Assembly (NCBI GenBank): GCA_003313425.1
Contig: NHZP01000054.1
Location: forward strand, 62,001-126,000
Direction: 5' to 3'
DNA length: 64,000 bases
Origin: Pseudopyrenochaeta lycopersici
Taxonomy: Eukaryota > Ascomycota > Dothideomycetes > Pleosporales > Pseudopyrenochaetaceae
The notes beneath the pieces are model-generated. The model was not told the origin of the DNA and did no database searches. It saw nothing but the letters and a program-made list of their open reading frames with translations. The position numbers were made by a program, and so were the translations under genes. This document shows, piece by piece, positions 1,186 to 15,920 of this stretch; position 1 is the stretch's first letter, and every line of letters begins with the position of its first letter.

Positions 1186-4100
1186 TCACTGGAAGCGACA
1201 TATCCAAACCTTTCCAGACCCTGTACCTAGACCAACACATCTTCCTGACACGGCTGAGCACACAGGTCTATACTCTGTTGGGAGCCACACCAGATTTTGG
1301 GCAATATCAGAAATCCAGGCGCTATCTGCGCTAAGCGTTGGCTCCTGACAGACAGGTAGCTTTCGTTTTATCACTGTTTTACCAGAGTGTAGCGACGTAA
1401 GAATAGAGATGAGACCAGCTGAGCTGAGCTGACCGGTATTATGGCCCTTGAGCGTGTGCAGACACGCCCCGCTGCTCGCATCCCACATCTTGACGGTGCC
1501 GTCGTCCGACGCCGACGCCAGCTGGGCCGAGTCGTGCGAGAAGGCCACTGACCTGACCCTATCGCTATGGCCCTTGAGCGTGTGCAGACACGCCCCGCTG
1601 CTCGCATCCCACATCTTGACGGTCCTATCGTCCGACGCCGACGCCAGCTGGGCCGAGTCGTGCGAGAAGGCCACTGACCTGACCGAGCTGCTATGGCCCT
1701 TGAGCGTGTGCAGACACGCCCCGCTGCTCGCATCCCACATCTTGACGGTGTTGTCGCTCGACCCCGACGCCAGCTGGGCCGAGTCGTGCGAGAAGGCCAC
1801 TGAGTTGACACAGCTGCTATGGCCCTCGAGCGTCTGCAGACACGCCCCGCTGCTCGCATCCCAGATCTTGACGGTGTTGTCGTCCGACCCCGACGCCAGC
1901 AGGGCCGAGTCGTGCGAGAAGGCCACCGAGATGACCGCATTACTATGGCCCTCGAGCGTGTGCAGACACGCCCCGCTGCTCGCATCCCAGATCTTGACGG
2001 TGTAGTCGTACGACGCCGACGCCAGCAGGGCCGAGTCGTGCGAGAAGGCCACTGAGTTGACCCAGCTGCTATGGCCCTCGAGCGTGTGCAGGCACGCCCC
2101 GCTGCTCGCATCCCAGATCTTGACGGTGTTGTCCCACGACGCCGACGCCAGCTGGGCCGAGTCGTGCGAGAAGGCCACTGAGCTGACAGCATAACTATGG
2201 CCCTCGAGTGTCTGCAGGCACGCGCTCCAGCTGTCGTCCATAGCGGGTAGAACCGTGATGTTATCTGGCTCTTCATGCTGAAAAAGCCTCCTTACTAAAC
2301 TCTCCCTTGGACTGAACAGCAACGCAGATACATATGCCTGCAGCGCGCTGGCCTCAATAGCTCTCTTGTGATACATAGCGAAGCGATGCGCATCCTTGAC
2401 CAGCTTAGCAAATGCGCTTGTGTCTTCTCTTCCCTAGCATCTGTTAGCCTAACAGTTTCTGCGACTATACCAATCAGTGAACACACTTGCGTCAGCGACC
2501 AGAGCTTCCCTATAGAGACAAGACCTTTCGACACGCTCTCGCACAGACTGAGAGCTTCTAGCCAGTAGAGAAACTTCTCCCGCAGAAACAGATCAACAAT
2601 ACCTCCATCCTGCAGTACATCTTCAGACCTCACTGAAGACGTGAGATTCGAGTCGCATAAATGATCGACCCAGTACTCGCATGCATATGCCATCTGCCCG
2701 AGAATGCTGTCCTCAACCCGCCTTGCCAGCTCCTTCGTCTGCGCTCCTGGCCTCTCTAAGCCGCACACGTCTCTTCGCAGCGAGCTGCGCATAGCATTGA
2801 GTAGGCGATAGGTCACCCGCCCGTGCTCCTCTGCTACTGCGCCACCGAACGCATGCCGCCCGTTACCTGATGCGAGATAGTCCTTGGCAGAGAGGTGGAT
2901 GAAGGATACAGTGTCTTGGCGGACGGTAAGAAAGGAGCCGCAGTAACTCACTAGGTCAGCCACTGTCTGCGGGTGATCAAACTGGTCGCTCGGGAGGCTA
3001 GCTAATACAACGAGTTCTCTCAAACGCAGGGGCCGGAAGGCGACAGTGACTGCTCGGAGAACATCTTTGCAGTACTCTGCTGTCCTGACGTCGTCCTGCC
3101 CTGAGATCTGTCCCATCATCCGGTTGTACAACGGGTCTAGTCCGCGTGGCATCGCCTGCAGCACCTCCCGGGTGCGGAAGAGCGGCACACACTCTATCTC
3201 TTTGCACACGAGCGACACCCACAGAAACGTGCCTTCGGCTTTGTCGCGCAGCAGCTGCTGTACCTCTGTTTGCAACCTAGCTTCATACTTCTTTACAGTC
3301 GCCAAGCGCTGCACTTTAAAGTCGATGAACGCAGCCACCGCTCTCGATACCTGGTGTGCGCTAACTTCAAGGCTGACCTTGACGCCGGCCGAGTCTGGCT
3401 GCAGATACTGCTCAATCTCCGGCAGGTTGCGGCTTGTTACTAGCCACTTGACCCTTGACCGACGTGCAAGGCTGTCGTCAGTGATAATACGGAGAAGAGC
3501 AGGCAGGCCAGTTGTGCACTCGTCGAGGGCGTCGACCAGCAGGTATGTCATTGGTAGAGTCGGGTCGTGGAGTACGTCTGAAAGTATCTCTCGCAGCGCG
3601 TAGATGGCGTTGTGTCCTTCGAAAAGCTTGCTTCCCACAGCCTCGTACCGTTTCTGTACATGTCGTATGAGCTGCGACTCCTGCACAACAAGCACGTAGA
3701 TGAGGCCACGAAGGACTGACACTGCGTTGTTAAGCTCTGGCCGTGTGCTCTGGCAGAAGAAGTAGGTCACCAGGCATGGCTGAGAGTTTAGCTTCATTCT
3801 CTTCGACATTGTCCTTGACGACAGCCTAGCCTTGGGTCCTTGCGACAGCTCAGCGATCAGACCCATTGTCATCATGGTCTTGCCTTTGCCTGGGTCGCCT
3901 CGGATCCACAGCAGCCGCGACTCGCCCTGCGTCCTCCACCGCTGGAAGCTGGCTTCGTCCAGTATCCAGGCATAACAGTCTCCGAGCAGCCGGTCCTTGT
4001 CGCCTTCGATCCGCGCCCGGTCTTCGCGCGGGTCGGTGACTCGCAGGTCACGGAGACATCGGTTGCCGTCTGGTCCGCCAGACCTGTCGGGAAAGTGTAT

Positions 4101-4190
4101 ATCGCCATGGATGTTGCCAAGGATGGCGATCGCGTTGCCGTCAATTGTGTTGCCGTCGTACGTTGTGGTATGGCCATGTGGAGACTGCAT
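1186..4190 (-). CDS. NACHT-WD40 NOD-like receptor (HET-E/HNWD type)
   Basis: This is a STAND-class receptor of 983 aa. Exon 1 is 4190-2487 and exon 2 is 2433-1186. The 53-bp intron has donor GTGTGT, branch GCTAAC and acceptor CTAG, and joins the two frames in phase 0. Residues 11-26 hold a spaced motif Y-x-G-N-x3-G-x6-G-N. The linker typical of this family (LRVTDPREDRARIE) follows. The NACHT domain has Walker A GDPGKGKT at 98-105 and Walker B LLVDALDEC. After a helical winged-helix-like region come six near-identical 42-aa WD40 repeats, a degenerate seventh and the usual C-terminal cap. In this family the WD repeats are the sensor and NACHT drives oligomerisation, which triggers cell death in heterokaryon incompatibility or defence. 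There is no N-terminal effector domain; that domain is encoded by the divergent neighbour at 4512. The frame is intact, so the gene is probably functional. Confidence 0.9.
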
Positions 4191-4511
4191 TCCGTGCGGC
4201 TTGCCCCTCCTTTATTGAGCGCGGGCCAGGGACTGCTCTGTGTAGCCGTCGGAAGCAAGCGGGCGTCCTACCATGAGTGCAGGACTTCAATATCCATGAG
4301 CGACCTCTTCGAACTTGTAGTTGAATATTAGTTGGCTGGCAAATGGGAAGCGATGAGGCGCGGTTTGATGCACTCATGCTGCCAAGTCTCCAGCTGAGAA
4401 GTAGACACTAAACTTCGTCACGCTACCTTCAGCCACAGCTACACATACACGACCAAACAGAACAACACGCTCTACAACTCCTGGGCAGAAAACTAGGACG
4501 ATTGGCCCAAC
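4191..4511. promoter_or_regulatory. shared divergent promoter region of the receptor/effector pair
   Basis: These 321 bp separate the start codons of two head-to-head genes: the NLR (minus, start 4190) and the SesA-like protein (plus, start 4512). No other gene lies between them, so both are presumably transcribed from this interval. I see no clear TATA box. Co-regulation is inferred from the arrangement alone. Confidence 0.5.
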
Positions 4512-5416
4512 ATGTCAGGATTGGTGTGTTCAAGAAACCATCTTTACTATCCGCAAAAACCTGACAGAATATGCTAGGAGGTGATTGGCGGCACAGCTGC
4601 TGTCTCTCAGCTGCTCGGTCAGGCGATTACCATCGTTCAAAAGATACAGGATGCAAGAGCAAAAGTGCACGGCGCGTCAGATCGCCTGGATGGCTACCAA
4701 GGCCAGCTGGACAATTTACTTAGTTCACTGCGACTTGTGCAAAACGAACCCGAGCTACAAACACCGTCAATTGAGAAGCTGATTCAGGAGATAATCAATC
4801 TGGCAAAGGAGTTGCAACGCCAGCTGGATGTCTTTGCCGCTCAGCTGGCAAAGAGCAAAACCAAACAGTACACGCATGCATTCATCAGTGGTGATAGAGA
4901 CGAGAGGGAGCTTGAGAGTGCCCTGACTCGACTGGACCGGGCAAAAGCAGACCTTACCGCACTGATCGTCACAGCGCAAGTCGGACTGAGCGGGTCCATG
5001 CGCGCCGGCTTCACAGCTGCTCTAGCAGTAGTCCAGCGAGTTGACAGAAACGTGCAAAAGGTCCTTGGCGAGAGGCTTTCCATTGCTGCTCAGCTCGAAG
5101 GCCGACGCTTGGGCGAAGGAGGTACTGTACCGTGGCACGATGGTACTCGCTTATGCTGACTGTATAAGGCAGTGGTACGGTACCTCTTACAGCTGAAGAC
5201 GTAAGAGCGCTGGATCTCCTAGATAGAGTGTCGTGGATCGACAACGAAGCGTTCGACGACGCGGATATGTTCAACACAGATCTCGTCGAGCGGCAGATCC
5301 ACGCACCTACAGAAAGGGTATACCAGGGCAACAGGGCGCATGGGAGGAGTACGGTTCTTCAGGGTAATGCGGATGCGGCAGGAATAGCGGCAATCCTGCA
5401 AGCAAAACGGCGGTGA
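4512..5416 (+). CDS. SesA/HeLo-like N-terminal domain protein, candidate effector partner of the NLR
   Basis: The reconstructed protein has 259 aa and three exons: 4512-4523, 4578-5121 and 5193-5416. Intron 1 (donor GTGTGT, branch CTGACA, acceptor CTAG) adds the start MSGL in front of EVIGG, the usual opening of fungal STAND N-terminal domains. Intron 2 (71 bp) has donor GTACTG, branch GCTGAC and acceptor TTACAG. The first 180 or so residues are helical and amphipathic (LLGQAITIVQKIQD, LIQEIINLAKELQ), as in SesA/HeLo-like death-inducing domains. The C-terminus carries Y-x-G-N-x3-G-x6-G-N at residues 229-244, the same spacing as the receptor N-terminus. In known pairs such as NWD2/HET-S, a matching motif lets the receptor template the effector into an amyloid. 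That role here is inference; the domain family call is fairly firm. Confidence 0.8.
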
Positions 5417-5669: not shown

Positions 5670-6690
5670 GGCCGTAGTAATAGCAAGCGGCAGGCCGTCT
5701 AGTTTGCGCGCCAGTCTGTGAGTGTCAAGGTCTTGGTGTTGTGTCAGCATCACTCACAATGAAGCACAAAGTATTGCCTACCAGCACTCAACTCGATACG
5801 CCTTGACAATCGTACTGTACTGTAAGAGTATTTCCAGATTGTGCTCGCTGTTCTGCAGCTGCTCCACCGCGACAGGATGACCAACTTGCAGCTGAGATGA
5901 CTGCGTCATAACCAGCACTGCCCCGTGACGTGCTTCAGGAAAGAACGGCCGGACGTCAAGTGTCTGCTTCGTTATGCCCTGACAGCTTCGGCGTGTCGTG
6001 GTTGTCGAAGATGGCCAACCATCGGTCGTTCCCAGCGCTACTCAGTCACCGCTTAACCGCTTCCACCGCCGCCAACATCGCTGACTTCATAAACAGCCTT
6101 TAGATGCACGAGCGACGAATGCTCGCGAAAGATGTGGCCTGCCGCTGCCGCATCGCTTTGCTTCAACAAAGTTTTGCTTTACTGTTGACCCAGAACACAG
6201 CCGAATTCGCTTTCCTATGTCGCTCCGCGTACGCCAGCGCTAGCTGCGTCTTGCCCATCCCAGCCAAGTCGTGCACCACGACGGTTTTACGAGAGCCGTT
6301 GTGCTGAAGACCTTTGTGGATCGCAATGAGCTCCTCCATCCGACCGTCGAGGTGCTCTACGTGCGATACTTCCAGCACGCTGAACTGGACGTCAAACGAC
6401 CCGATGGGCTCGATGGAGCGAAATACAGACAGCTTGTTACCACTGCTATCTCTCCTGCCTGCTGTAAGTCCAGCCCTACGTACCCGCGTGCACCCTGCCC
6501 TCCATGTCCCACTGTCGGCCGATCGCATCGCCCGCACGCGCAGCCATCATCTGTCCACGTCTTCTCGCAGTGTCCGTTCAGGCCATGGACCGCGACGATG
6601 CTGGGATTGACTGCGTCAGTCAAGTAAGAAACGGTATGGCTACAAGGCGGAGCGTACTCGATGATCGGATCGATGCCTTCCCGCACTCCC
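5670..6690 (-). pseudogene. relic of a SesB-hydrolase/NB-ARC receptor
   Basis: On the minus strand three blocks of a second NLR class remain in the correct order. Block 1 (about 6690-6580) is SesB-like alpha/beta hydrolase start, with PSIVAVHGLNGH and KTWTDD. Block 2 (about 6420-6165) is NB-ARC with MEELIAIHKGL, the P-loop GMGKTQLALAYAERHR and FWVNSK. Block 3 (about 6060-5670) has RWLAIFDNHDTPKL-like and LARKLDGLPLAITTA-like segments. They lie in different frames with several stops, and most of the hydrolase domain between blocks 1 and 2 is missing. No repeat domain is left. It is clearly non-functional. The truncated Tc1 copy lies against its 5' end. The relic shows that this locus held more than one receptor. 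Confidence 0.75.
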
Positions 6691-6699
6691 TGCAAGCCT

Positions 6700-7714
6700 T
6701 GCAGAACTGCACCAACTGCTTGTGCTGACGGTGAGGGTGCAGATTGTTATATTGTGGATAGAATTTGTACATGCGCTTCTTCAGGTACCACCAGAGGTGC
6801 TCAATTGGGTTGAGATCAGGTGAGTATGCTGGCCATTTGATGGTGGTGATGTGGTGCTCGCGCAGGAACTCACGCGTTGCTGCAGCTGTGTGTATGCGCG
6901 CGTTATGCTGCATAAAAAGCTGAGAACGGCGCCAAGATGGTAGAAGCCCTTTGGTCAAGGCCTTAATGTAACTTTTGGCGGAGTACCCATACTTTGGAGC
7001 ATCGAAATCACGCTCCATTATGACTAGAGGACTTCTCCGGGCACACCCACGTTCATCCAACCATATTGAATCCCACACCATTTGTGACACCCCTTTACTG
7101 CAGCTATAGGTTTGGAGCATTATTGTCTTCCATTTCTCTTGTGAATTTCGAAAAACCCACTCTTAGTTTTGCCCTGAGCCCTTCTGAACTAAGCATTCGT
7201 CAGAGAACTTGAGCGTGCGCCGATGCCATGGGAATTGAGAGTACTCCTTGCAGAACTTGAGGCGCCTCAACGCATCCCCGCGATGGAGGTTAGGACGCTT
7301 TTTACAAGGAGATTTAGTGAGGCCTTGTCTTTTGAGGTATCGGGATAGTGTGCTATAGCTGGGCGGCTTTGAAGAGGTGCCATCTGGATTCATAACCACT
7401 GCCACTTCAGCTAGCTCTATATACTCAATTTTTGGCTGCGCACGTGCTTTGCGATAGATGATCTTCTTTTGATGAAGCGATAGTATAGGTGGTCGGCCGC
7501 TACGAGGTTTATCTGCAGTTGTGCCTGTTTGGTGATATTTCTTCCTGAGGTCGCGTATAGCGCGTTCACTCCGGCCACACGCGTCAGCAACTTGAGCAAC
7601 CGTAGAACCACCATGCAGCATCCCAATAATTTGATCTCGCTGCTGGACTGTTAAATTAGGGCCTCTGCGCGTATTTTGGTCTATTTCTTGTAAAATTTGG
7701 CGTTGTGGTGGCAT
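6700..7714 (-). pseudogene. Tc1/mariner transposase, inactivated
   Basis: A single frame from the ATG at 7714 encodes an N-terminal helix-turn-helix pair (QQRDQIIGMLHGGSTVAQVA, then a KPRSGRPP linker) and a DDE domain. It is interrupted by one TAA at 7163-7165, just after FSDECLVQKGSG. The second catalytic Asp expected in the QDNA motif is His (MQHNARIHTA, with Asn kept). The third acidic residue is kept in YSPDLNPIEHLWW. The C-terminal tail after YPQYNN does not match the family, and the sequence passes into the SesB relic near 6690-6745. Nonsense codon, active-site change and a lost end together mean a dead copy. Confidence 0.85.
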
Positions 7715-7800
7715 AGTTATGATACTTAAAAGTTGAGAAGGAGATGTTGTGAGGGAACGCGTCGCGCTAGTGCGGCGGAAACTTTTGCGGGGTCACTGTA
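6700..7800 (-). mobile_element. truncated Tc1-like DNA transposon
   Basis: The transposase relic occupies 6700-7714. The 5' terminus is probably at 7800: read on the minus strand the sequence starts TACAGTGACCCCGC, and the TA followed by CAGTG is typical of Tc1-like ends. I could not find a matching inverted end near 6600-6750, so the distal TIR seems lost. Confidence 0.6.
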
Positions 7801-7956: not shown

Positions 7957-8365
7957 CTCACTGCGTAGCGAGACACACGGTGTGGCGAGACGCCTCGCAG
8001 ATCGGACCTTCGGACCCACCCTACCACATGTGCACAGAGCCATGTCTGGCACATATTAAATCTTCTAATAGTATTCTACAAATCTATAAGCCTCCGATAG
8101 TAGATAGCTCTAATCCTACCTATGCTAGACTAGATGGAAGGGTGTCGCTTTCGATCGGCGAAACTCCCGGGATTCACGTCCTTGTCTTAAATCGACCTGA
8201 TACACTAAGCCCTATAGATAATATATCGGATACTGGCTTGCTCAAGGACTAACAACTGCAGAAGCAGAGCGCGCTCATGAGAAGTAAATACTGCTGATGT
8301 GAAGCGACCCCGAAGGTCCGAAGGGAAAAGTGTCTCGTTACACCGTGCGTCTCGCTACGCAGTAG
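7957..8365. repeat. MITE-like element with about 60-bp terminal inverted repeats
   Basis: The ends 7957-8017 and 8306-8365 are inverted copies sharing ACTGCGTAGCGAGAC, CACGGTGT and TCGGACCTTCGG. The 290-bp AT-richer interior has no credible gene. The right end finishes 7 bp from the stop codon of the HET-ankyrin gene at 8372. Related single ends occur at 35508-35552 and 61473-61511. Confidence 0.7.
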
Positions 8366-8371
8366 GCGACG

Positions 8372-11300
8372 TTACTCATACTTATCCCCAGCCCCATCAT
8401 TGTCCCCGTCCTCATCCTTATCGAATTGCAGTAGCCAGACCACGACTTCATGCCCGTTCTGCTTTGCCCACCATAGCGGCGTCTGGCCTCTCAGGTTATC
8501 CTTTGCTTCGATATTGGCGCCCTTCTCGAGCAGCAGCCCGACTACAGATTCGTGCCCGTTCACCGCTGCTATTAAGAGCGGCGTCTGGCCTATCAAGTTA
8601 TCCTTTGCTTCGATGTTGGCGCCCTTCTCGAGCAGCAGCCCGACTACAGCTTCGTGCCCGTTCGCTGCTGCTATTAAGAGCGGCGTCTGGCCTATTAAGT
8701 TATCCTTTGCTTCGATGTTGGCGCCCTTCTCAAGCAGCAGCCCGACTACAGCTTCGTGCCCGTTGTCTGCTGCTCCCCAGAGTGGTGTAATTGCCCACGA
8801 CTCCTTACTCTTTACCTCGATGTCAGCACCCTTTTCGAGCAGCAGCCCAACTACAGCTTCATGCCCGTTCTGCGCTGCTACAAAGAGTGGTGTAATTGCC
8901 CACGACTCCTTACTCTTTACCTCGATGTCAGCACCCTTCTCAAGCAGCAGCCCAACTACAGCTTCGTGCCCGTTCGCCGCTGCTACAAAGAGCGGCGTCT
9001 GGCCTTTCAAGTTATCCTTTGCTTCGATGTTGGCGCCCTTCTCGAGCAGCAGCCCGACTACAGCTTCATGCCCGTTCTGCGCTGCTATTAAGAGCGGCGT
9101 CTGGCCTATTAAGTTATCCTTTGCTTCGATGTTGGCGCCCTTCTCGAGCAGCAGCCCGACTACAGCTTCGTGCCCGTTCTCTGCTGCTCGCCAGAGTGGT
9201 GTAGTTGCCCACAACTCCTTACTCTTTACCTCGATGTTAGCACCCTTCTCGAGCAGCAGCCCGACTACAGCTTCGTGCCCGTTGTGCGCTGCTACAAAGA
9301 GCGGCGTCTGGCCTATCAAGTTATCCTTTGCTTCGATGTTGGCGCCCTTCTCGAGCAGCAGCCCGACTACAGCTTCGTGCCCGTTCGCCGCTGCTCGCCA
9401 GAGTGGTGTAATTGCCGACGAGTCCTTACTCTTTACCTCGATGTCAGCACCCTTCTCAAGCAGCAGCCTGACTACAGCTTCATGCCCGTTCGCCGCTGCT
9501 ACAAAGAGTGGTGTAGTTGCCCACAAGTCCTTACTCTTTACCTCGATGTCAGCACCCTTCTCGAGCAGCAGCCTAACTACAGCTTCGTGCCCGTTCTGCG
9601 CTGCTCCCCAGAGTGGTGTAGTTGCCCACGAGTCCTTACTCTTTACCTCGATGTCAGCGCCCTTTTCGAGCAGCAGCCCAACTACAGCTTCGTGCCCGTT
9701 CTGCGCTGCTCGCCAGAGTGGTGTAATTGCCGACGAGTCCTTACTCTTTACCTCGATGTCAGCGCCCTTTTCGAGCAGCAGCCTAGCTACAACTCCGTGC
9801 CCGTTCTTGGCAGCCCACAATAGCGGCGTCTGACCCTCCTTGTCCTCCGCCTCGACATCGGCGCCCTTCTCGAGCAACAGCTTGACGATGGTTATGAACT
9901 CGTTTCGGGCGGCCCATGAGAACGGTGTCCGACGTCCGCTGCCGTTCAACTCGATATTGGCTCCGTTCTCAAGAAGAAGCGTAGCGGCAGCCTCATACCC
10001 ATTTACAGTGGCCCACCATAGCGGCGTCCAACCATCATTATCATTCCATTCAGTATTAGCTCCTCTCCTAAAAAGCAGCTCGATTACGGTATTGTGCCCA
10101 TTCCAAGCGGCCCACCACAGCGGTGTCCGACCGCCGTTATCTGCCGACTCGATATAAATCCCCTTGTGCTCTCCTTCGGCGCCATACGACAGAGGCATCC
10201 GGCCTTCATGAAACAGCCGACCGTCCTTGCCCTTCGCCTTGATGTCTGAGGTCCTCTCGAGAAGCAAGTTAACGACGGCCTCATGCCCATTCTTGGCAGC
10301 CCACAATAGCGGCGTCTGACCCTCCTTGTCCCTCGCCTCAGTGTCTGCGCCCTTCTCGAGCAGAAGGTTAACGATGGCCTCATAACCATTCCTGGCAGCC
10401 CAGAATAGCGGTGTCTGACTCCCCTTGTCCCTCGCCTCGGTGTCAGCCCCCTTTTTGAGCAGCAGCTTGACGATAGCTCTGTGCCCGTTCATGGCGGCCA
10501 ACAATAGCGACGTCCGACCATCCTTATCCTTCGTCTCGTTATTAGCGCCCCTTTCGAGTAGTAGCTTAACGACGGGTTCGTGACCGTTCCTAGTGGCATA
10601 GAACAGTGGCGTCTGGTGATAATTATCCATTGCGTTGACGTCGACTTTGCCTGACTTAAGCAGCAGCTGAACAACGGCATCGTGCCCATTCTGCACCGCC
10701 CACCACAGCAGCGTCCGCCCGTCCTTATCCTTCAAGTCAGCATCAACGTCGCTTCGAGCTAGTAGTATCTTGGCAACCGCCTCATGGCCCCCCCTTATCG
10801 CGTGCGATAATGCCGTCCGTCCATGTTCGTCCTTCAGGTCGGCCTCAACGTCGCTTCGTGTCAACAGCAACCATACAACGTCCTCTACTCCTTTTTCCGC
10901 AGCACGTAACAGTGCCATAGGTTCCCCGAACTCCATCAAATTCGTTAGCGCATCATTGAGGTAGATCTCCCCTGGAGCGATGCTGTTGCATTGCTTGAGG
11001 TCTTTTGATTTGCGCATACGTGACCTGTGCCCTGTTTGGATCCACATTCTTCTTATAGGATATTGCGACGGTCTGTAGTTTTTTAGATCAAGCCGTTCGA
11101 ATTCTTCACTTTGAACTCTCTCAAATCGTTCCATTGTTAAAAATAAATCTCTCACGTAGATGGCGATCAACTTATCTTCCCTACCAATTTCTTTACAATG
11201 AAGGATCGCGACTCCTAGTCCCCGATGGCCTCTGCCTATAAAACGAAGTTCCAAATGGATCCCTTTGCTGCTCACAGTGAAAGAGCTGTTAGAGGTATCA

Positions 11301-12106
11301 AAAGGATTGAATTGGACGATGTTGTAGGAGCCGATGAATGAGGCCGGAGAGGTTGCCAGAAGTCCGCCGGGATCATCAGGAGATCTCCATGCGAAGAGAC
11401 TGTGGTCGTCCGAGATCTTCATAATTTCCTCCTGTAGTCTAATAAAGGCAGATTCTCTTTCTCCGTAGAGCAGCGGCATGTTGATACCAAAGATGCCCAT
11501 TAAACAATAAGCGAGGTCCTCGATTCTCGATGTTTCTCTCTTTGCAGCCCATGACATTCTTTGTGCGATGCTAAACGTTTCAAGGTCGTCTTCTCCTGAC
11601 AGGATACTTCCAGGTATGCCAGTACGGTTGGATACAATTTGTCGAAGATCTGCCTTGGTTCCCAGTTCTTTCCAGTTCTCATCAAAAAATACTACCATTG
11701 ATGGAGCGATTAGCTCTTGAAGGGTCCATCCTCTAGTAAACCACCGGCTATCCGAGAATTGTTTTGACGGTACGTCAGCAAGATACGCGTAGCATACCTC
11801 AGCTTCTTGGTACCAATGATACATTGAGTTTATCGCTTCGGAGAGCTCCGCGCTGCTGGTTTTATCAATGCAACAGGTGTCCACCCAGAAATATTGCAGA
11901 CCGTCTTGAGCAGCTTGTTTGCCGCAGAGGGCCAACTTGCGATAGCCCTTCTTGCTCTTGCCTTTGCCTTCTATTAAGTCTCTGAATGTAACTTCCTCAT
12001 TGTCTGATCCCCAGGTGTGCGAAAGAATTGCATACCGCCGTACGTTGCCGCCTACGTATTCAACAAGGCTGAACTCGCCCTCGCCACAGAGCTCCAAAAG
12101 ACGCAT
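8372..12106 (-). CDS. HET domain-ankyrin repeat protein (HET-D/E-like NLR-related)
   Basis: This single-exon gene encodes 1244 aa from the ATG at 12106 (MRLLELCG). A frame 24 codons longer exists upstream, but the downstream ATG matches the family start. The HET domain follows at once: YAILSHTWG, FWVDTCCIDK, WYQEAEVCYAYLADV, WFTRGWTLQELIAP. A middle region has the conserved RIEDLAYCLMGIFGINMPLLYGE. From about residue 415 to the end there are about 25 ankyrin repeats. The last 15 or so are nearly identical and use two alternating linkers, one with EVKSK and one with EAKDNL. HET proteins execute fungal incompatibility cell death; the ankyrin array is the likely recognition part. The frame is intact. 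The stop codon lies 7 bp from a MITE end. Long antisense open frames here are a by-product of the repeats. Confidence 0.92.
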   Translation of the reverse strand: MRLLELCGEGEFSLVEYVGGNVRRYAILSHTWGSDNEEVTFRDLIEGKGKSKKGYRKLALCGKQAAQDGLQYFWVDTCCIDKTSSAELSEAINSMYHWYQEAEVCYAYLADVPSKQFSDSRWFTRGWTLQELIAPSMVVFFDENWKELGTKADLRQIVSNRTGIPGSILSGEDDLETFSIAQRMSWAAKRETSRIEDLAYCLMGIFGINMPLLYGERESAFIRLQEEIMKISDDHSLFAWRSPDDPGGLLATSPASFIGSYNIVQFNPFDTSNSSFTVSSKGIHLELRFIGRGHRGLGVAILHCKEIGREDKLIAIYVRDLFLTMERFERVQSEEFERLDLKNYRPSQYPIRRMWIQTGHRSRMRKSKDLKQCNSIAPGEIYLNDALTNLMEFGEPMALLRAAEKGVEDVVWLLLTRSDVEADLKDEHGRTALSHAIRGGHEAVAKILLARSDVDADLKDKDGRTLLWWAVQNGHDAVVQLLLKSGKVDVNAMDNYHQTPLFYATRNGHEPVVKLLLERGANNETKDKDGRTSLLLAAMNGHRAIVKLLLKKGADTEARDKGSQTPLFWAARNGYEAIVNLLLEKGADTEARDKEGQTPLLWAAKNGHEAVVNLLLERTSDIKAKGKDGRLFHEGRMPLSYGAEGEHKGIYIESADNGGRTPLWWAAWNGHNTVIELLFRRGANTEWNDNDGWTPLWWATVNGYEAAATLLLENGANIELNGSGRRTPFSWAARNEFITIVKLLLEKGADVEAEDKEGQTPLLWAAKNGHGVVARLLLEKGADIEVKSKDSSAITPLWRAAQNGHEAVVGLLLEKGADIEVKSKDSWATTPLWGAAQNGHEAVVRLLLEKGADIEVKSKDLWATTPLFVAAANGHEAVVRLLLEKGADIEVKSKDSSAITPLWRAAANGHEAVVGLLLEKGANIEAKDNLIGQTPLFVAAHNGHEAVVGLLLEKGANIEVKSKELWATTPLWRAAENGHEAVVGLLLEKGANIEAKDNLIGQTPLLIAAQNGHEAVVGLLLEKGANIEAKDNLKGQTPLFVAAANGHEAVVGLLLEKGADIEVKSKESWAITPLFVAAQNGHEAVVGLLLEKGADIEVKSKESWAITPLWGAADNGHEAVVGLLLEKGANIEAKDNLIGQTPLLIAAANGHEAVVGLLLEKGANIEAKDNLIGQTPLLIAAVNGHESVVGLLLEKGANIEAKDNLRGQTPLWWAKQNGHEVVVWLLQFDKDEDGDNDGAGDKYE

Positions 12107-12411
12107 GAGAAATGTAGTGTTGTGCGGGTTCAGCAGAGGAATAATTGAATAACTGTGGGGAATAATTGTACAATTCAAGCAGTCAAAGAACTGCGCCGGT
12201 GACAGTCACATAGATGATGGAGAGCAGTGTAGGTTGACGAGCTGAGGATGATGGCCACTGCAGAGTGGCTAAGCTTGAACGTAGCTGAGTCCACGTGATT
12301 AATAGGCGACTTTTGAACATCATTGACGAATGTGATTCGATACTGACTGTTGCCACCACACAATGTGCAAAGTAATGTAAATGCTGAAGAGGATGAATTC
12401 AAATATGCTTA

Positions 12412-14200: not shown

Positions 14201-14584
14201 GAATGAAACTGAACTGAAGTGACCGCGACGATGAAGGAGAAGTTGTAAAACGATAAGACGACACGTATGGGAAACGCGCTACTCTGGCTTGACTGATATG
14301 GTTCTTAGGCGTGTCAGGCGCTAGGTCGTTCCCATCGGCGGGGTCGGTTTCAGTGGCGCTATGCCAAGGCGTTCAGCACGTGCGCCTAGAGAGCCGCCTT
14401 AGCACTTTTGCAAATGGCTGCCGGATAAGAAAATAAGCATCGGTGGAAATATCGAGACACTCGATATTGCCACCCACTAACGTAAACACGTAGCGAGTCG
14501 CGCCCCTAAGCGAGTCGCGCGCCCCATCAACTTTCTCAACCCATCCCACTTCAATCCAGAATAGTTCCACAACCAACAATCAGA

Positions 14585-15490
14585 ATGCCTTCAAACGAGA
14601 GTGACATTCAGCTTGCAATCGCGGCAATACAAGCCAATCAAATACAGGGCAATAAACCTGCTGCTAGAATCTTTGACGTCCCTGAAACTACGTTGCGCGA
14701 CCGACACGCCGGCAAGCCCGCCCGACGCGATTGCGCCCCCAACTCAAAGAAGTTTACTGGGCTAGAAGAGGAGGTAGTTGTTAGATATATATTGGATCTA
14801 GATTTACGTGGATTTTCGCCCAACCTGGCTACTGTACGTGATATGGCTGATACTTTACTGGGGCTGCGTGGGGCTGGACGGGTTGGACGGGACTGGCCAA
14901 AGAACTTTGTCAAGCGTACAGACAGTCTTAAGACAAGTTTTAATCGAGCATATGACCGGCAAAGAGCCTTGTGTGAGGATCCAGAGGTAATTAGGGCCTG
15001 GTTTACGCGGGTGGAAGAGACAAAGGCTAAGTACGGCATCCTAGATGAGGACGTGTACAACTTTGACGAAGCTGGCTTTATGATGGGCAAGATCACGACT
15101 CAACTTGTCGTAACTAGGTCTGAGAGGAGGTGTAGAGCAAAGACAATCCAGCCAGGCAACCGTGAATGGGTTACGTTAATCCAGGGAATCAACGCAGCTG
15201 GATGGGCAATCCCGCCGTTCCTAATCTACGCAGCCAAGTATCACTTGTCTGCCTGGTACGAGGAAGATGATCTCCCACTTAACTGGGCAGTTGGAGTTAG
15301 TGATAATGGCTGGACAAACAATAACTTAGGGGTTCACTGGCTAGAGCACTTCAACCGGCATACAAAGACCCGCGTGGTTGGTGCACGTAGGCTGCTTATC
15401 TTTGATGGCCATGAGAGCCACCACTCAGCCCAATTTGAAGAGATGTGTAAAAAGAACAACATTTACACTCTGTGTTTGCCAGCCCATTCA
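14585..15490 (+). pseudogene. Fot1/pogo family transposase, truncated
   Basis: The start at 14585 (MPSNESDIQLAIAAIQ) gives a psq-type helix-turn-helix (ARIFDVPETTLRDR), a CENP-B-like DNA-binding region (RDWPKNFVKR) and the DDE_1 catalytic domain. The first Asp is in YNFDEAGFMMG and the second in LLIFDGHESH. The family motif carrying the third acidic residue should follow LCLPAHS, but the sequence switches there to a dispersed repeat (15497 on). The frame stays open by chance to 15670. Loss of the third catalytic residue makes this copy inactive. No frameshift is seen in the preserved part, so the damage may be fairly recent. Confidence 0.85.
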
Positions 15491-15496
15491 GGAAGA

Positions 15497-15555
15497 GTGG
15501 CCGACTCACTCCGGTCATATCCTTGCGCTGGAGGCGTTGGATATTTTGGTGCGCG
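15497..15555. repeat. dispersed repeat, copy 2 of 4, inside the Fot1 transposase
   Basis: This matches 12463-12535 (shared blocks GGCCGACYC, CTCCG and CTGGAGGCGTTGGA). It replaces the conserved third-aspartate region of the Fot1 ORF, marking the break point of the transposase. Confidence 0.6.
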
Positions 15556-15920
15556 GATGAAGAGGAATCAGGACAAGGTGTTGTCGGCTCAAGATAGAGT
15601 AATACGTTCATTGGTAGGTTGCAGCTGTGATCTCCAGCAAGGTTTCCATGGCGGAGCAGAGCTAAGGTAAGGTCTCTAACTACTGTACCCAGTAGCAAGA
15701 TCTACGGACCAGAAAAGCTCCACAACGGGAACTAAAGCAGCGGCCACCGTTCTGGCTTGGTTGTGTTGCGGCACCACTAGCCACACTTGCGTCAGAGCCT
15801 TGGCGGGCTGTGGCACTGTCGCTGAGTCAACCAAAGCGGCCAAAGCGGCCCGGCTCCTAACCACGATCAGTCTGCGCGACAGCCACTGTGCAACTCCACG
15901 ATGCCGTGCAACATACTGCT

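Follow-up and report, generated by a model that had tools for sequence, protein, structure and literature searches.

A divergent receptor/effector gene pair of Pseudopyrenochaeta lycopersici: a probable HET-s-like amyloid-signalling locus with a new class of motif in Pleosporales

We analyzed a stretch of 64,000 nucleotides from the 62.7-Mb genome of Pseudopyrenochaeta lycopersici (contig NHZP01000054.1, positions 62,001 to 126,000, part of the contig we call C54), hereafter the window. In it, the gene of a NACHT-WD40 NOD-like receptor (NLR) of 983 amino acids on the minus strand and that of a SesA-like helical protein of 267 amino acids on the plus strand form a head-to-head pair, most likely one that signals through a HET-s-like amyloid and represents a new motif class in Pleosporales. 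Judged by sequence, the receptor carries one copy of a short motif (r0) at its N-terminus and the helical protein, the putative effector, carries 2 repeats (r1 and r2) in its C-terminal tail, which is the layout of NWD2/HET-S. The analysis documents at this level the parts and their pairing, that related fungi conserve both halves, and that these often occur on the same contig, while amyloid templating and cell death would follow by analogy with the known system. On this computational evidence, which is strong, we consider it highly probable that the 2 genes make up an immune module that signals by amyloid in the manner of NWD2/HET-S and uses a motif of a new class.

The receptor gene (1186..4190, minus strand) was built from a splicing model, open reading frames (ORFs), and a domain scan, and has 2 exons (4190-2487 and 2433-1186). 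The intron between them (2434..2486, minus strand, 53 bp, GTGTGT...CTAAC...TAG), supported by the splicing model and by direct reading of the sequence, joins the NACHT frame to the WD40 frame. A broken receptor gene in 2 frames was ruled out because this GT..AG intron is in phase and contains a CTAAC branch-like site. The frame is closed 21 bases 5' of the ATG at 4190, and this ATG is therefore the receptor start, barring an upstream exon. A divergent intergenic stretch of 321 bp, from start codon to start codon (4191..4511), separates it from the effector gene (4512..5416, plus strand), whose 3 exons (4512-4523, 4578-5121, and 5169-5416) rest on a splicing model and collinear homologues. An effector model of 259 amino acids with the acceptor at 5193 was ruled out because homologues favour the acceptor at 5169, with which 10 tail-bearing relatives are collinear across the second exon joint; in 2 of these 10, P0006 and P0008, part of the N-terminus is missing. 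Both genes have intact frames after splicing, as the initial annotation of this DNA had stated. The gene models, the motif families, and the domain scan likewise confirmed its description of a divergent pair with related terminal motifs, in which the receptor has no effector domain and, as in NWD2/HET-S, the motif sits at the N-terminus of the receptor and at the C-terminal end of the adjacent effector. The effector motif that it had placed at residues 229–244 exists, at residues 237–252; the former numbers fit the rejected 259-residue model.

The receptor shows the layout of fungal NACHT-WD40 NLRs of the STAND (signal transduction ATPases with numerous domains) type: a NACHT-type NTPase core (NPHP3_N / NACHT, residues 73–254, 3429..3974, minus strand; Pfam PF24883, E 4.1e-30) is followed by WD40 repeats (about residues 643–901, 1435..2211, minus strand; 6 stretches by Pfam PF00400, and WD40-type models), and the domain scan of the receptor found no effector domain ahead of the NTPase. 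By eye, the WD40 repeats are near-identical among themselves, a pattern known from NLR genes whose repeats evolve in concert. The r0 motif, YDGNTIDGNAIAILGN, occupies residues 11–26 (4113..4160, minus strand) and is followed by IHGDIHF. A search with the first 110 residues gave 583 matches, of which 120 receptors were listed. We aligned 113 of these and the window receptor without using a pattern, omitting 7 that lack 25 residues before the anchor, and in the resulting 114 rows found Y11 in 105, N14 in 104, G18 in 97, and G25 in 109, with A as the most frequent residue at position 16 (84 rows). Only this alignment counts for r0 conservation, because the pattern by which 90 receptor motifs (81 distinct) were picked from the listed receptors requires Y/H and G; in 76 of these 90, the Y lies at residues 7–12. 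The most frequent form in the listed receptors is YxGNRADGDSTNIYGNVYGD, and the window r0 has a rarer form, NTIDGNAIAILGNIHGD. In the relative P0162, a PNP_UDP phosphorylase is fused in front of the receptor and the full motif lies between PNP_UDP and NACHT; P0173 and P0177 also have PNP_UDP in front and a shortened motif. These 3 proteins are possible traces of effector-receptor gene fusion. Elsewhere in the genome, contig C36 (2791-4140, plus strand) contains a receptor fragment with 89% identity to residues 197–277 of the window receptor; it lacks the N-terminal part in frame and begins differently, which may reflect truncation or rearrangement.

The effector carries a motif related to r0, YQGNRAHGRSTVLQGN. 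We scored 13 effector proteins (the window effector and 12 homologues, of 70 matches) and 13,000 shuffles of them with profiles made from receptor motifs. The profile of the S-T form (51 motifs, a form other than that of the window) scored 14.2 bits at the C-terminal motif of the window effector, where the best shuffle reached 8.3; of the 11 tail-bearing effectors, 6 scored above the best shuffle with it. With the profile of all 81 motifs, the window effector scored 11.3 bits and the best shuffle 8.8. In the reverse direction, 69 receptors had a match to the effector profile, and for 65 of them the best site fell within the first 110 residues; this profile, which consists of 11 rows, 3 of them out of register, gave no match on the window receptor. 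The similarity of the motifs is clear at the level of the families, though not in every comparison, and the receptor and tail alignments together with the linked contigs showed the motif conserved in both partners of homologous pairs, in favour of the initial annotation. Its string of anchors, Y-x-G-N-x3-G-x6-G-N, fared less well: it is present in the window pair, with 6 anchors listed and 6 identical where 7 had been counted, and it is less conserved than had been implied, since 120 listed receptors include only 46 with an exact match and the 76 effector tails only 10. A better common core is Y-x-x-N-x-A-x-G-x-[S/A]-x4-G, and the consensus of the effector tails is ERxYxGNKAHGRSTVxQGxADAA. At position 16, N was found in both partners on 4 of 4 linked contigs versus 3 of 12 others (Fisher p 0.019), a covariation on which we do not build because 3 of the 4 receptor motifs are nearly the same sequence.

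Where the initial annotation had seen a single motif copy on the effector, we found 2 repeats. The second, r2 (residues 234–252, ERVYQGNRAHGRSTVLQGN; 5312..5368, plus strand), was located by the receptor-motif profile, its conservation in 71 tails, and the strands predicted by AlphaFold2. The first, diverged repeat, r1 (residues 205–223, RVSWIDNEAFDDADMFNTD, reading KVSWIDNEAFDDADMFNTD; 5225..5281, plus strand), was located by an offset of 29 residues at the family level, covariation, and predicted strands. When r2 was compared with 184 upstream offsets in 11 effectors (without P0009 and P0065, both tail-less), the offset of 29 stood out with a score of 13.7, the next being 2.2, and when receptor motifs were placed on effectors, r2 was the best site and the r1 site the second (z 6.8 and 3.9; next 2.5). 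In the window protein alone r1 was undetectable, the best self-match being at offset 22 (p 0.35). A search with the tail gave 64 proteins of 50 to 115 amino acids, which we took for last exons called as genes. Covariation was calculated on 71 of the 76 tails, 5 with truncated or divergent ends being dropped. Among 3160 column pairs, position 7 of r1 with position 7 of r2 ranked first by corrected mutual information (6.1 standard deviations). The charges at these positions are opposite in 58 of the 71 tails (48 acid/base and 10 base/acid), alike in 1, and include at least one neutral residue in 12. On a tree of 70 rows (P0229, the row with alike charges, omitted), the charge swap amounted to 4 class changes, with one contrast on well-supported branches. 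Because supported branches are too few, we use the ranking by mutual information, not a phylogenetic p-value, as the evidence. The charge content of r0 is low (13% versus 29% and 27%).

We also predicted the structure of the tail. AlphaFold2 without templates (alignment of 50 of the 70 effector matches) gave homologue P0001 a near-identical strand pattern twice, at residues 205–223 and 234–253 (mean predicted local distance difference test score, pLDDT, 64.7). The tail alone (alignment of 55 of the 64 tails) showed the same doubled strands with a mean pLDDT of 73.2, single blocks inside r1 and r2 reaching 88 and 89. The tail is thus predicted to be a two-rung β-solenoid. The motif occupies a separate exon, behind a linker modelled with low confidence, and is predicted to form the 2 rungs. 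As far as the prediction goes, the C-terminal stretch is therefore not part of the SesA fold, an alternative that the initial annotation had raised. When the predicted tail was compared with the PDB, the amyloid structures of HELLF and HET-s ranked first and second (6eka and 2rnm), though with E-values above 1. PDB sequence searches with the tails, the motifs, and the tail of a paralogue on contig C32, described below, retrieved no amyloid protein.

The 2 families are also linked in other genomes. On the effector side there were 49 distinct contigs of 3 kb or longer, and 20 of them were common to the 120 listed receptors when contigs were matched by size, and a control with sizes shifted by 1 to 200 either way gave a mean of 0.17 and never more than 2. 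In Plenodomus, the locus tags of the partners are 2 apart (NX059_012303 and 012301), and in Alternaria sp. MG1 14 apart. Linkage is not always adjacency, because in Didymella keratinophila the tags are far apart, though the contigs match. A second divergent pair was found in the P. lycopersici genome on contig C42, with r0 YAGNTIDGNAIAILGN and r2 YRGTKAHGRSTVLQGN, and the divergent order was seen only in the window and C42 pairs. About 4 kb from the C42 effector lies a second receptor (8330-10000, plus strand) with the commoner r0 form (ANNRADGDSSNIYGNVYGD). Since 2 receptors and one effector are found on C42 and also match the contig sizes 53077, 43924, and 9701, several receptors may share one effector.

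The effector domain itself (about residues 7–178, 4584..5099, plus strand) matched SesA weakly (PF17107, E 5.5e-4, 20.5 bits versus a Pfam gathering score of 26.3, and so below the cut-off), and homologue P0001 likewise stayed below the gathering score (16.9 bits). Nine effector homologues could be named to species or genus; those of Macroventuria, Lojkania, Byssothecium, Decorospora, and Lindgomyces are all from Pleosporales. In a PDB sequence search up to E 1, the effector-domain profile matched neither MLKL nor HeLo nor the plant Rx coiled-coil, and Foldseek with the full-length model gave no match at E 0.001 and no HeLo structure among the matches listed. Structural likeness to the MLKL executioner domain and the plant Rx coiled-coil is within helical-bundle noise; unrelated bundles score alike. 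The same genome encodes an orphan distant effector paralogue, 27% identical (contig C32, 1392-2382, minus strand). Its doubled motif is clearer, with NCARNQALQIN and NVAEDQAVQIN at an offset that is again 29 (p 0.002; consensus NxAxxQA[LV]QIN), and this, too, supports r1 as a repeat in the effector. A third copy, KDNAVQINGSVADKI, is in a separate small upstream frame (ORF 3416-3691, minus strand), and by eye no NACHT frame was present about 10 kb either side among ORFs of 120–150 amino acids or more.

To place the motif, we compared the pair with the known amyloid-signalling classes. The closest are NWD2/HET-S and the HET-s-related amyloid motifs (HRAMs), with which it has in common 2 C-terminal effector repeats of about 21 residues and one repeat on the N-terminus of a neighbouring NLR, an r0 that is poor in charge and sits on a NACHT-WD40 receptor, a small helical effector whose gene is adjacent (as read in the window and on C42), and a predicted fold ranked nearest to HET-s and to HELLF, an HRAM member (PMC7889193). 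HRAMs are defined by, among others, hydrophobic positions 5, 8, 10, 16, and 18, an invariant G19, and a loop of 6 to 18 residues, and are reported to have a low charge of r0 and charge complementarity of r1 and r2 at positions 4, 6, 7, and 11–13 (PMC4518210). In our pair, assuming repeats of 21 residues, the offset of 29 leaves a loop of 8. Charges are complementary, at HRAM positions 9 (and 2) rather than those reported, in a numbering that depends on the register chosen, which was anchored on G19. The sequence signature differs: G19 is present in 70 of 71 r2 and 109 of 114 r0 but in only 5 of 71 r1, position 8 is N in 68 r1 and 61 r2 where HRAMs are hydrophobic, position 18 is N or Q instead of hydrophobic in 69 r1 and 71 r2, and the R/K preference at position 15 is absent from the 71 tails. 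Pfam and NCBIfam scans of both termini gave no match, including to PF11558 and PF17106, 3 further tails had no Pfam match, and the 15 matches of PF17106 in the P. lycopersici genome were all under the cut-off. Because architecture, loop, and charges agree with HRAMs but the sequence signature does not, we regard the pair as working like an HRAM system and do not file it under HRAM1–5.

The other classes are alike in organization and different in motif, their patterns being absent from all 121 receptors and all 76 tails. The sigma system of Nectria haematococca (sesA/sesB/het-eN), with 3 repeats of GxGxQFNxx / GGTQNINT (PMC3321046), also has a SesA-type effector beside an NLR and a common terminal motif; neither GxGxQFN nor GGTQNINT occurred in our proteins. 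The PP motif (HELLP/SBP/PNT1) belongs to a receptor-effector pair with a short amyloid motif as well, and its pseudopalindrome around Q, FxGx(x)NxGLQLxGxNxGxL, was absent when searched as a loosened pattern and as the core NxGxQxGxN. PUASM (FxGxGxQxxGxGxF) is likewise a paired motif, with PNP_UDP effectors where the window effector is SesA-like. GDQN comes from an NLR/SesA pair in Fusarium and was searched by the first part of NxxxGxQYxxxGxGDQNxVSxxxxQxN. Six letter strings of the motif family occurred in no paper of the open-licence literature searched, and no description of the motif was met in topic searches of it or in the text consulted, including that of PMC12881547 and PMC12258605; motifs are often given in figures. 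New classes with SesA effectors such as GDQN are still being found (PMC12261475), and further numbered motifs of fungal NLRs exist (PMC9815663). The motif apparently differs enough from HRAM, PP, sigma, PUASM, and GDQN to be a new class, in line with the suggestion of the initial annotation that it might be new or divergent. The comparison covered the named classes by their text descriptions; the numbered motifs NLR05-NLR44, PF01048_015, and BASS1-10 are published as logos.

It is possible, although we rather doubt it, that the motif is a known class seen at a distance, either a far-diverged HRAM (HRAM4 or HRAM5) or a numbered motif such as NLR34, NLR40, or PF01048_015. HRAM4 and HRAM5 reportedly tolerate Q in the third strand. 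Q precedes the conserved G of r2 in 43 of the 71 tails, and HRAM4 is said to carry Q at position 18; the 2 repeats, the short loop, the r0 on a neighbouring receptor, the charge complementarity, and the HET-s-like predicted fold would all fit an HRAM, many of which are less than 10–15% identical to the HET-s repeats (PMC4518210). The N at position 8, the rarity of G19 in r1, the missing R/K preference at position 15, the negative Pfam scans, and the absence of the family strings from the literature searched argue against it. We think it unlikely that the motif constitutes an amyloid-signalling family of its own, one in which Pleosporales arrived at the two-rung β-solenoid of HET-s without descent from HRAM sequences. 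It would then be a portable module hosted by two-rung SesA-like effectors, by the PNP_UDP-NACHT fusion, and, in diverged form, by the orphan paralogue; the offset between doubled copies was 29 in this paralogue and in the 12 effectors measured.

Two further explanations concern what the motif does. The tail could be a stable two-rung β-solenoid on which r0 docks one-to-one as a third rung, which would mean binding without amyloid propagation. AlphaFold2 folds both rungs within one chain at high block pLDDT and r0 is a single rung-length motif, as this would need, but the 2 solved structures at the top of the ranking are of amyloid fibrils, known templating systems have the same r0/r1/r2 layout, and a two-rung solenoid has open edges on both faces, which would be expected to stack further; we give docking little credence. 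Smaller still is the chance that the motif is no signalling element at all, r0 being a conserved linker before NACHT and the tail resembling it through G- and N-rich composition or an old fusion. The motif of P0162 between PNP_UDP and NACHT would suit a linker, and several results weigh against our interpretation. The window pair has 6 identities in 16 positions, not remarkable by identity (p 0.07, 5000 shuffles; 0.001 by BLOSUM score), and taken alone is weak evidence for a shared motif; the profile of the A form, that of the window itself (27 motifs), gave the window effector 8.6 bits, under the best shuffle of 9.5; and the structural matches of the predicted tail to HELLF and HET-s have E-values above 1 (1.7 and 2.3). 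The S-T and all-motif profiles, in contrast, exceed shuffles that preserve composition, and the in-register covariation of r1 and r2, the genomic linkage with effector genes, and the Y at residues 7–12 of most receptor motifs also speak against a linker.

The interpretation that we prefer, a HET-s-like signalling pair, suggests a mechanism modelled on NWD2/HET-S (PMC5485727). The WD40 repeats would sense a ligand, upon which the receptor would oligomerize through its NACHT domain and the clustered r0 motifs would nucleate a β-solenoid. This solenoid would template r1 and r2 of the neighbouring effector, whose helical domain, once switched on, may attack membranes and kill the cell.

Other genes of the window were annotated by eye. 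A large HET-domain-like protein with many ankyrin-like repeats (8372-12205, minus strand, a frame of 1277 amino acids) is a second incompatibility-type gene near the pair. A fragment like an NB-ARC P-loop (VVVHDLAGMGKTQLALAYAERH; 6163-6546, minus strand) is apparently a relic of another NLR. Transposase-like frames, resembling Tc1/mariner and pogo, lie near the incompatibility-type genes (6620-7792, minus strand, and 14510-15670, plus strand).

The motif classes so far named in fungal amyloid signalling are few. If the class proposed here is indeed new, its natural charge-swapped variants would provide many sets of r0, r1, and r2 with which cross-talk versus privacy of prion-like signals could be tested, and it would show how far sequences may diverge with a HET-s-like fold still retained, or reached anew.

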